From Falsiroseomonas frigidaquae (GTDB taxonomy: Bacteria > Pseudomonadota > Alphaproteobacteria > Acetobacterales > Acetobacteraceae), in NCBI RefSeq assembly GCF_012163145.1, contig NZ_JAAVTX010000006.1:372001-436000 (forward strand): DNA of 64,000 bases, given 5' to 3'. The notes beneath the pieces were generated by a model. That model saw only the letters and a list, made by a program, of their open reading frames with translations. It was not told the origin of the DNA and ran no database searches. Positions 15,719 through 27,323 of this stretch are shown here, one piece after another. A program made the position numbers and the translations under genes. Every line of letters begins with the position of its first letter. Within the stretch, counting starts at the first letter, position 1.

Positions 15719-16929
15719 CCATCGGCGTCGGCGGATCGGATTTCGCCACGGAACTCGCGGGCCTCCGCAACCAGCGGGATGCGGTGCCGCCGATCGGGGC
15801 GGAGGAACACGCCCGCCGCGTGGACCGCGCCCAGGCCCGCATGGCGGAACTCGGCATCGCGGCGCTGTGGCTGGATGGCACGACCAACCTGGCCTGGATG
15901 ACCGGCCTGAAGCATGGCCAGTCCGAACGCCCGGTCGGCGCCGTGCTGCCGGTGCGCGGCCCCCTCACCTATCTCTGCCCGGAATTCGAGGTGGAGAAGC
16001 TGAAGACCATGCTGGCCCTGCCCGGCGAGGTCCGTGGCTGGGAGGAGGATGAGGACCCCTACGCGCTGTTCTCCGACATCCTGCGGTCCTCCGACGTCTC
16101 CGGCGGCACGGTCGCGCTGGACGAGATGGCGCGGGTCTTCGTGGCGGAGGGGCTGCGCGCGGCGCTGCCGAACCACCATTTCATCGCCAGCGGCCCGGTC
16201 ACCGGCTACCTCCGCCAGCGCAAGACGGAGCAGGAGGTGGCGCTGCTGCGCCAGGCGATGGGCATGACGCTGGAAATCCAGGCCGCCGCCGCCCGAGGCA
16301 TGCGCGAAGGCGTCACCACCACCGAGGTCGGCGAATTCCTCGCCGCCGCGCATCGCAAGGCCGGCTTCGATGGCGGGCCCGCCTTCTCCATCGTTTTGTT
16401 CGGGGAGGCCACGGCCTATCCGCATGGCGTGCCCTATCCGCAGGTGCTGAAGGATGGCGATGTGGTGCTGATCGATGTCGGCGCGCCGCTGCACGGCTAC
16501 GTCTCCGACATCACCCGCAGCTACGTCTTCGGCGAGCCGACCCGGCGCCAGCGGGACATCTGGAACCTGGACCACGCGGCGCAGGCGGCCGGCATCGCGG
16601 TGGCGAAACCCGGCATCACCGGCGGCGCCATCGATGACGCGGTACGTGGTGTGGTGGTCGCCGCCGGCTTCGGCCCGGGGCACAAGACGCCGGGCCTGCC
16701 CCACCGTGCGGGCCATGGCATCGGCATGGATGTGCATGAGGGACCGTATTTCGTGAAGGGCGGCAAGGAGATCCTGGCCCCCGGCGTCACCGGCAGCATC
16801 GAGCCGACCATCACCATCTACGGCGAATTCGGCATCCGGCTGGAGGACCACATCCTCATCACCGAGACCGGCGCCAGCTGGCTGACGCAACCCGCCAGAT
16901 CCGTGGATGATCCCTTCGGAGTGGCGTGA
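15715..16929 (+). CDS. M24 family aminopeptidase (Xaa-Pro dipeptidase type)
   Basis: A 404-residue pita-bread-fold metallopeptidase. The N-terminal creatinase-like domain contains ALWLDGTTNLAWMTGL. The catalytic domain shows the five metal ligands in order: Asp in LIDVGAPLHGYVSD, the second Asp in the same motif, His in HRAGHGIG, Glu in IEPTITI and Glu in GIRLEDHILIT. It should remove N-terminal residues before proline or cleave Xaa-Pro dipeptides in the cytoplasm. The ATG overlaps the uup stop by 4 bases. The C-terminal codons run into a 24-bp repeat, and the stop TGA overlaps a GTG that opens the GST frame. Confidence 0.88.
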   Translation: MTIGVGGSDFATELAGLRNQRDAVPPIGAEEHARRVDRAQARMAELGIAALWLDGTTNLAWMTGLKHGQSERPVGAVLPVRGPLTYLCPEFEVEKLKTMLALPGEVRGWEEDEDPYALFSDILRSSDVSGGTVALDEMARVFVAEGLRAALPNHHFIASGPVTGYLRQRKTEQEVALLRQAMGMTLEIQAAAARGMREGVTTTEVGEFLAAAHRKAGFDGGPAFSIVLFGEATAYPHGVPYPQVLKDGDVVLIDVGAPLHGYVSDITRSYVFGEPTRRQRDIWNLDHAAQAAGIAVAKPGITGGAIDDAVRGVVVAAGFGPGHKTPGLPHRAGHGIGMDVHEGPYFVKGGKEILAPGVTGSIEPTITIYGEFGIRLEDHILITETGASWLTQPARSVDDPFGVA

Positions 16930-16994
16930 ATGCGCCCGGACCAGAGGGCGTGAATACGCCCGGACCAAAGGGCGTGAATACGCCCGGACCAGAG
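16923..16994. repeat. three tandem 24-bp repeats, each with a small hairpin
   Basis: Three head-to-tail copies of a 24-bp unit (GGCGTGAATACGCCCGGACC plus four bases) start at 16923, 16947 and 16971. Units differ at two or three positions. In copies 2 and 3, GGGCGT-GAAT-ACGCCC can form a 6-bp hairpin; copy 1 has one G-T pair. The period is a multiple of three, so the plus frame stays open and reads GVNTPGPKG-like peptides. The array covers the last codons of the M24 gene and the leader of the GST gene. Confidence 0.85.
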
Positions 16995-17033
16995 GGGCGC
17001 GACGATACCTTCTTCAGCATAGGATTGACCGCC

Positions 17034-23904: not shown

Positions 23905-24803
23905 GGGAACGCCTTGGTACGGGTTTTCTCGGGGATCAGGCCCTGCGGCCGGAAGCGCAGCAGCAGGATCAGGCTCAGCGCGATCGCACCCTCACGCAGC
24001 GCCGCCTTCTGCACGGGGCTGACGCCGGGGATGATGGCGGAGAGGAAGCGGGTGGATTCCAGCAGCGCGATGACGAACAGCGCGCCGATGATGGCGCCCC
24101 GCATGGCGCCGACGCCGCCGGCGGTCAGCGCCAGCACGATGTAGATGGTCAGCAGCGGGGCGAAGCCGTCCGGCGCGATATAGGCGTTGTAGTGGGCATA
24201 CAGCGCCCCTGCCCCGCCCAGTACCGCGGCGCCGATGGTGAAGGCGCGGACCTTGAACCACAGCACCGGCTTGCCGGCGACGGCGGCGATGTCCTCATCC
24301 TCGCGGATCGCGCGCAGCACCCGGCCGAAGGGCGAATGCGACAGGCGCGCCAGCAGCACGAAGACCACGGCAACCGCCGTCCAGACGATGCCGAGATAGA
24401 TCAGGTTGAAGCCCTGCGGCGAGACATCGCCGCGCCACGGCCCGGGAATGCCGGAGATGCCATCCGTGCCATTGGTCAGCCAGATCTCGTTCGACGCCAC
24501 CAGGCGGATCACCTCGGCGAAGCCCAGCGTGACGATGGCCAGGTAGTCGCCGCGCAGCCGCGCCACGATCAGCGCCATCACGGCGCCCGCGGCGGCGGCC
24601 ATCAGGGCGCCCGCCGCCCAGCCGAGCGGCATCGGCCAGAGCAGCTTGGTGGTCAGCAGGGCGGAGGCATAGGCGCCGACCGCGAAGAAGCCGACCAGGC
24701 CGAGATTGACCATCCCGGCCAGGCCCCAGATCACGTTCAGCCCCAGCGCCATCAGCGCGTAGAAGCCGGCGAAGACCAGCATGGCGACGAGGTAGGCTTC
24801 CAT
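23901..24803 (-). CDS. livM: branched-chain amino acid/amide-type ABC transporter permease LivM
   Basis: A 300-residue inner-membrane permease with about 8-9 helices. The LivM pattern is NLGLVGFFAVGAYASALL, RLRGDYLAIVTLGFAEVIRL and the ATPase-contact loop SPFGRVLRAIREDEDIAAVAGKPV. It pairs with LivH and the LivG/LivF ATPases to import amino acids, amides, urea or aromatic compounds. The ATG at 24803 overlaps the livH stop by one base (TGATG). The protein ends with the short Lys/Arg tail RPQGLIPEKTRTKAFP. Confidence 0.9.
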   Translation of the reverse strand: MEAYLVAMLVFAGFYALMALGLNVIWGLAGMVNLGLVGFFAVGAYASALLTTKLLWPMPLGWAAGALMAAAAGAVMALIVARLRGDYLAIVTLGFAEVIRLVASNEIWLTNGTDGISGIPGPWRGDVSPQGFNLIYLGIVWTAVAVVFVLLARLSHSPFGRVLRAIREDEDIAAVAGKPVLWFKVRAFTIGAAVLGGAGALYAHYNAYIAPDGFAPLLTIYIVLALTAGGVGAMRGAIIGALFVIALLESTRFLSAIIPGVSPVQKAALREGAIALSLILLLRFRPQGLIPEKTRTKAFP

Positions 24804-25675
24804 CAGTTGCGCGCCCCGAGAATGCCCTGCGGCCGGAACATCAGCACCAGCAGGATGGCGAGGAAGGCGGTGACGGTGCGGTAGGCGGGCGACAGAACCA
24901 CGCCGGCCAACTCCTCCCCCACCCCCACCACCATGGCGCCCAGCGCCGCGCCGGGGATCGAGCCCAGCCCGCCCACCACCGCGGCTGCGAAGACGGAGAG
25001 CACGACGCGAAAGCCGGTCAGCGGGTCGATCGAGGTGTCGATGCCGATCAGCATGCCGCCGCACCCCGCCAAGCCGCCGCCGAGGAAGACGGCCACGCGG
25101 GCGATGCGGTTGGGATCGACGCCCTTGATGTCGGCCAGCACGGGATTGTCGGCCACCGCCCGCATGGCGCGCCCCAGTCGCGAGAAGCCCAATAGAAGAA
25201 ACAGCCCGCCCGCCGCGACGATGGCGTAGCCGGTGTTCTGCAATTGCTGCGGATTGACGCGGATGCCGTCGAAGCGCCAGTCGCGCAGGATCGGCAGGTC
25301 ATAGCCGCGCAGGTCATTGCCGAAGCTGAAGCGGATGATGTTCTCCAGCAGGATGGTCATGGCGACGGAGGCGATGGCGACGGTCAGCGGCCCCGCCGGG
25401 CGCAGCGGCCGGAACGCCGCTTCCTCGGCCAGCAGCGACACCAGCCCCGCCACCAGGAAGGCCAGCGGCAGCGCCAGCCCGATCGGCCAGCCATACACCG
25501 CATTCGCCACCCAGCCGGCGAAGGCGCCGGTGGTCGCGAAGCCGGCGATGGCGAAGTTCGGGTAGCGCAGCACGGCGAAGATGCAGTTGAAGCCGATGGC
25601 GGGCAGCATCAGCACGCTGCCCGCCATCACGCCGTTCAGCAGGATCTGAACGATGTCACGCCAATCCTGGATCAT
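24803..25675 (-). CDS. livH: branched-chain amino acid/amide-type ABC transporter permease LivH
   Basis: A 290-residue permease with LivH features: LLNGVMAGSVLMLPAIGFNCIFAVLRYPNF at the start, the coupling loop GRAMRAVADNPVLADIKGVDPNRI, and GGLGSIPGAALGAMVVGVGEEL near the end. Its ATG at 25675 lies only six bases from the 105-bp tandem repeat array. The sequence GAGGG, at the edge of that array, stands six bases before the ATG as the apparent ribosome site. It is separated from its binding-protein gene livK by the array, but all five liv genes run the same way. Confidence 0.9.
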   Translation of the reverse strand: MIQDWRDIVQILLNGVMAGSVLMLPAIGFNCIFAVLRYPNFAIAGFATTGAFAGWVANAVYGWPIGLALPLAFLVAGLVSLLAEEAAFRPLRPAGPLTVAIASVAMTILLENIIRFSFGNDLRGYDLPILRDWRFDGIRVNPQQLQNTGYAIVAAGGLFLLLGFSRLGRAMRAVADNPVLADIKGVDPNRIARVAVFLGGGLAGCGGMLIGIDTSIDPLTGFRVVLSVFAAAVVGGLGSIPGAALGAMVVGVGEELAGVVLSPAYRTVTAFLAILLVLMFRPQGILGARN

Positions 25676-25681
25676 TTCATG

Positions 25682-26101
25682 CCCTCAGACGCCGGGCGCA
25701 CGCTCCGCGTGCTTGGCTGCGCGGCATAAGCCGCGGCGGCCATTCGGCCGCTCGGCCGCCGAAGATCGCCGGCCGCATGGTGCACACCCTCAGACGCCGG
25801 GCGCGCGCTCCGCGTGCTTGGCTGCGCGGCATAGGCCGCGGCGGCCATTCGGCCGCTCGGCCGCTGAAGATCGCCGGCCGCATGGTGCACACCCTCAGAC
25901 GCCGGGCGCACGCTCCGCGTGCTTGGCTGCGCGGCATAAGCCGCGGCGGCCATTCGGCCGCTCGGCCGCCGAAGATCGCCGGCCGCATGGTGCACACCCT
26001 CAGACGCCGGGCGCACGCTCCGCGTGCTTGGCTGCGCGGCATAGGCCGCGGCGGCCATTCGGCCGCTCGGCCGCCGAAGCACGCCGGCCGCAAGGCGCCG
26101 C
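25682..26101. repeat. four tandem 105-bp repeats between livK and livH
   Basis: Four near-identical head-to-tail copies begin at about 25682, 25787, 25892 and 25997, with an exact period of 105 bp; the last copy drifts at its far end. Each unit holds three inverted repeats: GCACGC-TCC-GCGTGC, GCGGC-ATAA-GCCGC (ATAG in copies 2 and 4) and CGGCGGCC with GGCCGCCG. The period is divisible by three, so frames stay open. One minus frame (25677-26111) gives an arginine-rich 144-residue ORF with four 35-residue repeats that ends one base before the livH ATG. It fills almost the whole livK-livH gap. I do not recognise it as a known element, and the ORF is not called as a gene. Confidence 0.9.
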
Positions 26102-26117
26102 AAGGGATCACGCCGCT

Positions 26118-27323
26118 TCAAACGAGTTCGAGCACCCGGTACGCACCACCCTCTGCCACCTCGTAGCGGAACTTCGTGCCGCGGATGTCGCCGCGCTCGT
26201 CGAATTCGCAGGGGCCGGAGGCGCCCTCGAAATTCACCGCGCGGCCGGCGGCGATCAGGCGCAGGCCGTCCGTGACGTTGTCCACCTTCTCGCCATCGCC
26301 CTGGCAGATCTTGCGGACATTGTCGCGGATCACGGTGCCGGTCGCCTCGCCGCCTTGGGCCGCGGCCAGGATCGCCATGGTGGCGTGGTCGTGCACCTGG
26401 GCCGAGTAGGGATCGACCTCGGTGCTGCCGAAGGCGGCCTTCAGGCGGGTAAAGGCGGGGCTGTTGAGGTCCGGGCTGGGCTGGAAGGTGGTCAGCCCAT
26501 TGGTCACCTCATTCGGCAGGGTGCCGAAGACGCTGGCCGGCGCGGCATAGGCGAAGGTGAAACGGCGACCGTCGAAGCCGGCGCGATACAGCTCCCGCAG
26601 CAGGATGGTCACGTCCGGCAGGTAGCCGTTCAGCATCACGGTGTCGGAGCGGCTGCGCATGATCTGGTCCACCTCGGACCGGAAGGCGGTCTTGTCGCGC
26701 TCGTACACGATGTAACCGGACACGGCGCCGCCGCCGGCACCCAGCGTCTGCGTCATCACATCCTGGCTGGATTGCGCGAAGGGCGACTGCGCCGCCATGT
26801 GGAACACCCGCTTGGCGCCCTTGCCCAGCAGCCACTTGCTCGCCGTCTCGATCTGCAGGCGGCTGTTCGGCTGGGTGCGGAAGATGTGGCCCTGATGCGG
26901 CAGCAGGGTGATGCTGTCGGCGCCGGAGACGGTGAACAGCGGCACCCGGTTCTCCCAGCACAGCGGCGCGACGGCGGTGGTGACGGAGGATGCCCAGGTG
27001 CCCATCAGCGCCTGCACGCGGTCCACGTCGATCAGCTTGCGCGCGCCGCGCACGCCGGCATCCGGGTTGGTCTGGTCATCCTCGAAGGCCAGGCGCACCT
27101 GGCGGCCCTTGATGCCACCGGCGGCATTCGCGGCCTCGACCACGCCCTGCATGGCGCGCAGCATCGCCGGTCCGTACGGGCCGCCGGCGCCGGTCAGCGG
27201 CGGCAGCGCACCGAACACCACCGGCTGGGTCTGCGCGAAGGCGCGGCCGCCAATGGCGAAGCTGGAGACCGCGGCGGCGGCCCCGAGCAGGGCGCCGCGG
27301 CGCCCGAGTTTCATCTGCATCAT
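26118..27323 (-). CDS. livK: ABC transporter substrate-binding protein, LivK type
   Basis: A 401-residue periplasmic binding protein of the Peripla_BP_6 (leucine/isoleucine/valine, amide, aromatic-acid) class. The signal peptide MKLGRRGALLGAAAAVSSFAIGGRAFAQ has a Tat-like RR. The mature part opens PVVFGALPPLTGAGGPYGPAM, with AANAAGGIKGRQVRLAFEDDQTNP and a cleft region LMGTWASSVTTAVAPLCWEN. It delivers the ligand to LivH/LivM. The ATG at 27323 follows GAAGGGAAG at seven bases. It sits between livF and the repeat array. The ligand class cannot be fixed; the operon's enzyme hints at a compound other than a simple amino acid. Confidence 0.88.
   Translation of the reverse strand: MMQMKLGRRGALLGAAAAVSSFAIGGRAFAQTQPVVFGALPPLTGAGGPYGPAMLRAMQGVVEAANAAGGIKGRQVRLAFEDDQTNPDAGVRGARKLIDVDRVQALMGTWASSVTTAVAPLCWENRVPLFTVSGADSITLLPHQGHIFRTQPNSRLQIETASKWLLGKGAKRVFHMAAQSPFAQSSQDVMTQTLGAGGGAVSGYIVYERDKTAFRSEVDQIMRSRSDTVMLNGYLPDVTILLRELYRAGFDGRRFTFAYAAPASVFGTLPNEVTNGLTTFQPSPDLNSPAFTRLKAAFGSTEVDPYSAQVHDHATMAILAAAQGGEATGTVIRDNVRKICQGDGEKVDNVTDGLRLIAAGRAVNFEGASGPCEFDERGDIRGTKFRYEVAEGGAYRVLELV

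Follow-up and report, generated by a model that had tools for sequence, protein, structure and literature searches.

A tandem array of a dispersed MITE-like element lies between livK and livH in Falsiroseomonas frigidaquae and probably provides the livH Shine–Dalgarno sequence

We analyzed a stretch of 64,000 nt from the Falsiroseomonas frigidaquae genome (hereafter, the window) in which two neighboring minus-strand genes, presumably livK and livH (names assigned by gene family), are separated by a tandem array. The features of the junction are as follows.

24803..25675, minus strand: livH, permease gene downstream of the array
25672..25674, minus strand: TGA within the livH ATGA start, presumed right target triplet
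25682..25686, minus strand: GAGGG, probable livH Shine–Dalgarno sequence, judged from its position; same place in five one-copy relatives
25682..26101, minus strand: tandem array of four 105-bp registers (TRF, register comparison)
25682..25779, minus strand: core copy 1, livH-proximal, four hairpins plus CTGAGGG (R1 101.8 bits; independent BLAST matches to dispersed copies)
25787..25884, minus strand: core copy 2 (R1 95.4 bits)
25892..25989, minus strand: core copy 3, its register identical to register 1 (R1 101.8 bits)
25997..26094, minus strand: core copy 4, livK-proximal, left arm diverged (R1 97.4 bits)
26118..26120, minus strand: livK stop TGA, presumed left target triplet, the element ends having decayed
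26118..27323, minus strand: livK, substrate-binding protein gene upstream of the array (homologs at 14 of 14 livH loci)

Model R1 describes the four hairpins; of the 31 copies used to build it, two belong to the livK–livH array. The array copies are themselves among its rows, which bears on the bit scores above. TRF placed the array at 25682–26092 (period 105, 3.9 copies, 97% matches, 0% indels) with a score of 780, the highest among the 11 TRF rows of the window, and the best R1 match in the rest of the window had an E-value of 0.027. Another tandem repeat, at 16923–16996 (24 bp × 3.1 copies, 94% matches), sits at the end of a predicted gene, and the 5′ part of livH contains a perfect inverted repeat of 13 bp around an 8-nt loop (25595–25628). 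The registers begin at 25682, 25787, 25892, and 25997 and together fill 25682–26101. On the minus strand, six bases separate the array edge at 25682 from the livH ATG at 25675; the inner unit edges read GAGGG TGTGCACC ATG, and the outermost edge reads GAGGG CATGAA ATG. TRF and the sequence thereby bear out the preliminary description, which had reported an exact 105-bp array ending 6 nt from the livH ATG and unit edges of GAGGG followed by ATG, with the outermost GAGGG 6 nt before livH. Registers 1 and 3 are identical, and register 1 differs from register 2 at three positions and from register 4 at eight, seven of which fall in the last 22 nt. Registers 2 and 4 also have one variant in common against registers 1 and 3, a pattern suggesting growth by doubling, from one unit to two to four.

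Each unit contains a core of ∼98 nt consisting of four hairpins, not the three inverted repeats first described, plus CTGAGGG. Stem cells changed on both sides numbered 71 in the first alignment, compared with 22.9 (SD 3.5) after shuffling, and 376 compared with 133 (SD 6.8) in 85 model-aligned copies, the latter count carrying the lean of such copies toward the modeled structure; pairing was lost when partners were slid. Several unpaired stretches (AAGCCAA, GGA, GCCCGGCG, and TGAGGG) are nearly invariant. G-T/T-G cells (15) and A-C/C-A cells (nine) were similar in number, and equal at eight each when three outlying pairs were removed, so the palindromes may be maintained as DNA and not as sense RNA; selection on the sense RNA strand is unsupported by these counts. 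A single unit was no more stable than its own shuffles (z of −0.3 to −1.2), and the whole array with its flanks was somewhat more stable than shuffles (z of −2.35). None of 4227 Rfam models matched positions 25400–26400 at E ≤ 1. We looked in the array for a promoter, an intrinsic terminator, or a terminator-like site and found none, leaving the earlier idea that the array terminates part of the transcripts unsupported.

A 144-residue ORF does run through the array, with its stop 1 nt before the livH ATG, as first noted. Its openness is nevertheless compositional: Four of the six frames of the periodic unit are open, against an average of 4.1 in dinucleotide shuffles, which makes the ORF uninformative. 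Arrays elsewhere have spacings of 101, 104, 105, 106, 110, 146, and 195 nt, mostly not multiples of three. We rejected the reading of the unit as 35 codons on both grounds.

The unit belongs to a dispersed family. A BLAST search of one unit against its own genome gave 46 matches at E ≤ 1, the four array copies included, and a second four-copy array with 104-nt spacing was found on contig C13. The preliminary description had proposed searching Acetobacteraceae genomes; doing so revealed matches in all 15 congeneric genomes and in six of 20 genomes from other genera of the family, and with three of 24 other genomes of the class, the unit was matched in 25 of 60 genomes overall (own genome counted). 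At E ≤ 1e-5, R1 identified 50 copies in the own genome and 14–100 in each of the 15 congeners. In a sample drawn from the whole class, at least 11 of 191 genomes had a match at E ≤ 1e-6 (own genome included; 10 of 190 others), these counts being lower bounds because few candidates were scored per genome; with the same few candidates scored, two further genomes of the own family in this sample had no match at E ≤ 1e-6. Among the genomes drawn, the core is present in other alphaproteobacterial families. Five matches read from such families (L321–L325) keep the 3′ half (AAGCCAAG, stem, GGA, stem, CGCCCGGCG, TGAGGG), and their first hairpin and outer core parts are not recognizably the same. Searches of open-licence PMC papers brought up none on the element family that we recognized, and term look-ups in PMC10969869 and PMC12306157 yielded nothing about it.

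For the analysis of genomic context, we took 184 of 196 model matches and removed three further duplicates, yielding 181 copies. Of the 12 matches left out, seven duplicated copies that were in the set (four from L075, and one each from L051, L053, and L056) and five were the weakest (three of L224, and one each of L065 and L221). Copies outside the own genome are the best-scoring among the matches listed and not a random sample, orthologous junctions of different species were counted separately, gene contexts came from our own gene finder, and for loci L231–L275 position alone was used. Among the matches listed, 65 copies lay in convergent gaps, 60 in sense and 49 in antisense orientation between co-directional genes, four in divergent regions, and three otherwise. 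The element avoids divergent regions (four of 181 among the matches listed) and has little strand preference. The preliminary description had set against its own reading the case of a randomly dispersed element with no consistent position or orientation near genes; the copies are indeed dispersed and occur in both orientations, but their position relative to genes is not random. Close tandem copies occurred at seven loci. In one relative, the gene cluster that includes livK has a core copy (L036, 936–1025) upstream of that gene; an ATGACC start follows it, and its neighbors are probably livG and livF.

Full-length copies resemble MITEs and are bounded by TACCA...TGGTA. By a fixed test, 22 of the 181 copies among the matches listed had terminal inverted repeats starting with TACCA or nearly so; the other 159, including those at livK–livH, failed it. 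Identical 3-bp flanks, all of the form TNA (six TGA, six TCA, two TTA), surrounded 14 of these 22 full-length copies among the matches listed. Random pairing of left and right flanks gave a mean of 5.9 identical pairs and reached 14 in two of 20,000 shuffles. An exact empty site was found for L105, which reads ...GCC TGA–MITE–TGA CTCAG..., in the orthologous L293 of F. tokyonensis, which reads ...GCC TGA CTCAG.... A second comparison, L084 with L277, was only roughly consistent, L277 reading TGATCA with small indels. The duplicated triplet was the stop codon of a flanking gene in 13 of 14 cases; since 10.7 were expected from the TNA sites of the gaps (P = 0.037), the stop-codon habit is mostly a consequence of the TNA target in such gaps, and any further preference for stop codons is at most slight. 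These duplications mostly involved convergent genes, with one clear ATGA overlap (L215). The element is also short (core ∼98 nt) and noncoding, with open frames as composition predicts, and is best filed as a MITE-like family. The earlier suggestion of an expanding mobile repeat has thus held up, given the dispersed family, terminal inverted repeats, target duplications, and exact empty site.

No transposase-bearing partner was present among exact terminal-inverted-repeat pattern matches in two genomes, and no IS5-like partner at 18 PF13340 loci in five genomes. TNA duplications are linked with IS5-type transposases. Two copies in the own genome, L083 (C12:465375–465468) and L084 (C16:499001–499094), have the same sequence in the compared stretches and sit at unrelated places, suggesting recent transposition in F. 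frigidaquae. Around another copy (L082, 1501–1601; C16:289659–289759) there is a 17-bp direct repeat comprising the start of the downstream gene, which a 3-bp duplication does not explain.

The livK–livH junction takes several forms among relatives. In seven of 14, F. algicola among them, the livK stop overlaps the livH start (five TGATG, two TTGA), and in two more the genes are separated by a short gap with no copy of the element, so that nine lack it; the remaining five have one copy each, all oriented as in the window, and F. frigidaquae has four. On a LivK+LivH tree, the no-element state needs at least three changes on well-supported branches, so the element was gained or lost at this junction on more than one occasion. 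All six element-bearing species have a TGA flanking the insert on either side. Yet the TACC ends are unrecognizable there, and the window abounds in TGA stops (41 of 51 gene ends) and in NTGA starts (24 of 51), so that insertion at the livK–livH TGA is something we infer. NTGA starts beside short-armed sense copies (16 of 23 as called, compared with the 24 of 51 window genes) were likewise weak as proof of duplication, and we did not rely on them.

The preliminary description had also held that the array supplies the livH ribosome site, and for this junction the claim is plausible: GAGG (GAGAG in one species) stands 6–10 nt before livH in all six element-bearing species, and the tail GAGGG followed by ATG probably serves as the livH Shine–Dalgarno sequence, as judged from motif and spacing. 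Among the matches listed, 23 sense copies had a called gene start ≤15 nt away, and for 18 of these 23 it lay 6–10 nt past the end of the core, compared with 12 of 37 gene ends at comparable distances in other contexts (P = 0.0012); L033, whose start was mis-called inside the element, was left out, and L082 and L152 were taken as called, which works against the claim. The claim does not extend to the family, as GAGG is kept just as well where no gene start is near; among the matches listed, sense copies have it in 54 of 60 cases, antisense copies in 44 of 49, and convergent copies in 58 of 65. Short right arms were found in 23 of 60, 19 of 49, and 18 of 65 of these copies, respectively. With orientation nearly even (60 vs. 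49) and GAGG kept in all contexts, we rejected family-wide selection of GAGGG as a Shine–Dalgarno sequence, and no family-wide ribosome-site function is apparent; GAGG is a signature of the element, usable where it happens to fit, which points to co-option and not design.

Taken as a whole, we consider it likely that the core of a nonautonomous MITE-like element, inserted at a stop codon, was amplified fourfold in tandem to form the array, and that the element parted two genes and gave livH a new Shine–Dalgarno sequence, uncoupling its translation and adding a hairpin barrier. Insertion would have occurred at the TGA of a livK/livH overlap. Because the TNA target in tight GC-rich junctions almost always coincides with a stop codon, insertion duplicates the stop and leaves the genes intact. 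Loss or original absence of the right arm would have placed the CTGAGGG tail 6 nt upstream of the livH ATG, in a position to act as the Shine–Dalgarno sequence, and successive doublings would then have produced the four units. An overlapping and probably coupled livH start would in this way have been replaced by an independent one. The approximately sixteen GC-rich hairpins behind livK might shield its message from 3′ exonucleases, favoring the binding protein over the permease. The likely effect is that livH would be uncoupled from livK, with a hairpin barrier added like the one at malE–malF. The tuning of the ratio between binding protein and permease raised in the preliminary description is conjectural and draws on the same malE–malF analogy. 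In Escherichia coli, the malE–malF intercistronic structure stabilizes malE, the binding-protein gene, and differential decay in four other ABC transport operons likewise leaves the binding-protein gene as the stable one (PMC5927463). We extend this only tentatively, and with more doubt than belief, to an undescribed alphaproteobacterial mini-transposon family that is targeted through TNA to stop codons and turns coupled, overlapping genes into separately translated ones, with copy number setting the size of the barrier. TACC...GGTA ends beside TGA would leave the upstream stop intact and could complete a downstream ATG, and the structured core would bring a hairpin barrier and a Shine–Dalgarno sequence with neither gene broken.

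The strongest competitor, to which we give perhaps a one-in-three place in our thinking, is a neutral parasite: an element that inserts and grows in tandem without any regulatory role, the GAGGG–ATG spacing reflecting only the loss of insertions that harmed livH translation. Both orientations and the abundance of convergent sites speak for it, as do the equal retention of GAGG everywhere, short right arms that are equally common in all contexts among the matches listed, and the nine of 14 relatives whose livK–livH junction lacks the element. It fits less well with the finding that six species, distributed over more than one branch, have copies in the same orientation at livK–livH, and a block of hairpins in a transcript would seem unlikely to be without effect. 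Far less credible is an RNA regulatory element that evolved to serve the liv operon as an attenuator or structured leader; the hairpins, their location before livH, and the Shine–Dalgarno-like tail suit such an element, but it is largely refuted by 50 copies in the genome at varied genes, and the empty Rfam search, the lack of a terminator-like site, substitutions without strand preference, and its absence from nine of 14 relatives all argue the same way. We give marginally less credence still to a translated repeat, a MIRU-like leader ORF that couples translation into livH. The ORF that stops 1 nt short of the livH ATG and the GAGGG–8 nt–ATG form of the inner units speak for it, and MIRUs are reported to insert at start codons and to carry a coupled ORF (PMC12548453). 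Against it stand the compositional openness of the frames, a unit-start ATG that is missing from array copy 4, L031, and L033, and spacings in other arrays that mostly would not keep frame.

If amplification of a stop-targeted element is the right account of the junction, it would show concretely how a mobile element can rewire operons at gene junctions without damage, since the triplet it needs occurs in tight GC-rich junctions almost only at stop codons. It also bears on the long-standing question of whether palindromic repeats that separate a binding-protein gene from a permease gene determine the ratio of the two products. Because related species show this one junction with overlapping genes, with a single copy, and with four copies, that question becomes directly testable. 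The core itself reaches other alphaproteobacterial families (at least 10 of 190 other genomes drawn), with no matching Rfam model at the livK–livH array.

Among known repeats, the element resembles bacterial MITEs (PMC2229807) in being under 200 bp, noncoding, and mainly intergenic, with terminal inverted repeats and a target duplication; it differs from them in its asymmetric, GC-rich core of four hairpins, whose stems covary and which occurs under different outer arms, in its TNA duplication on stop codons, and in its tandem arrays. The CIR repeats found in Caulobacter and further alphaproteobacteria are similar in length (∼110 bp), intergenic position, hairpin arms with a linker, and spread over the class, but they are defined by a conserved GANTC (PMC2229807), which occurs in one of 181 cores, or 27 of 181 with arms, among the matches listed. 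We rejected CIR identity on GANTC, although a distant relation to CIR1–CIR4 may exist.

REP/BIME repeats, including the one at malE–malF, work like the element as palindromic repeats between binding-protein and permease genes and also occupy co-directional and convergent gaps, whereas their palindromes are 20–40 bp long and the element has a four-hairpin core of ∼98 nt. A GTAG/CGTC-tagged REP palindrome was not recovered, as CGTC in GGCGTCTGAGGG varies (GGCGCC, GGCGTT); CGTC repeats are reported as missing in Acetobacteraceae (PMC3733652). A search for the RAYT transposase (Y1_Tnp, PF01797) had no match in the own genome and was positive in five of 14 genomes, and without a RAYT in its own genome, we rejected REP/RAYT identity. 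The target of mycobacterial MIRUs is DTGA. The MIRU (PMC12548453) works like the element in being a short repeat at stop/start junctions that does little harm and grows in tandem; it carries an ORF coupled to the next gene, whereas the element has hairpins, a Shine–Dalgarno-like tail, no meaningful ORF, and copies in both orientations.
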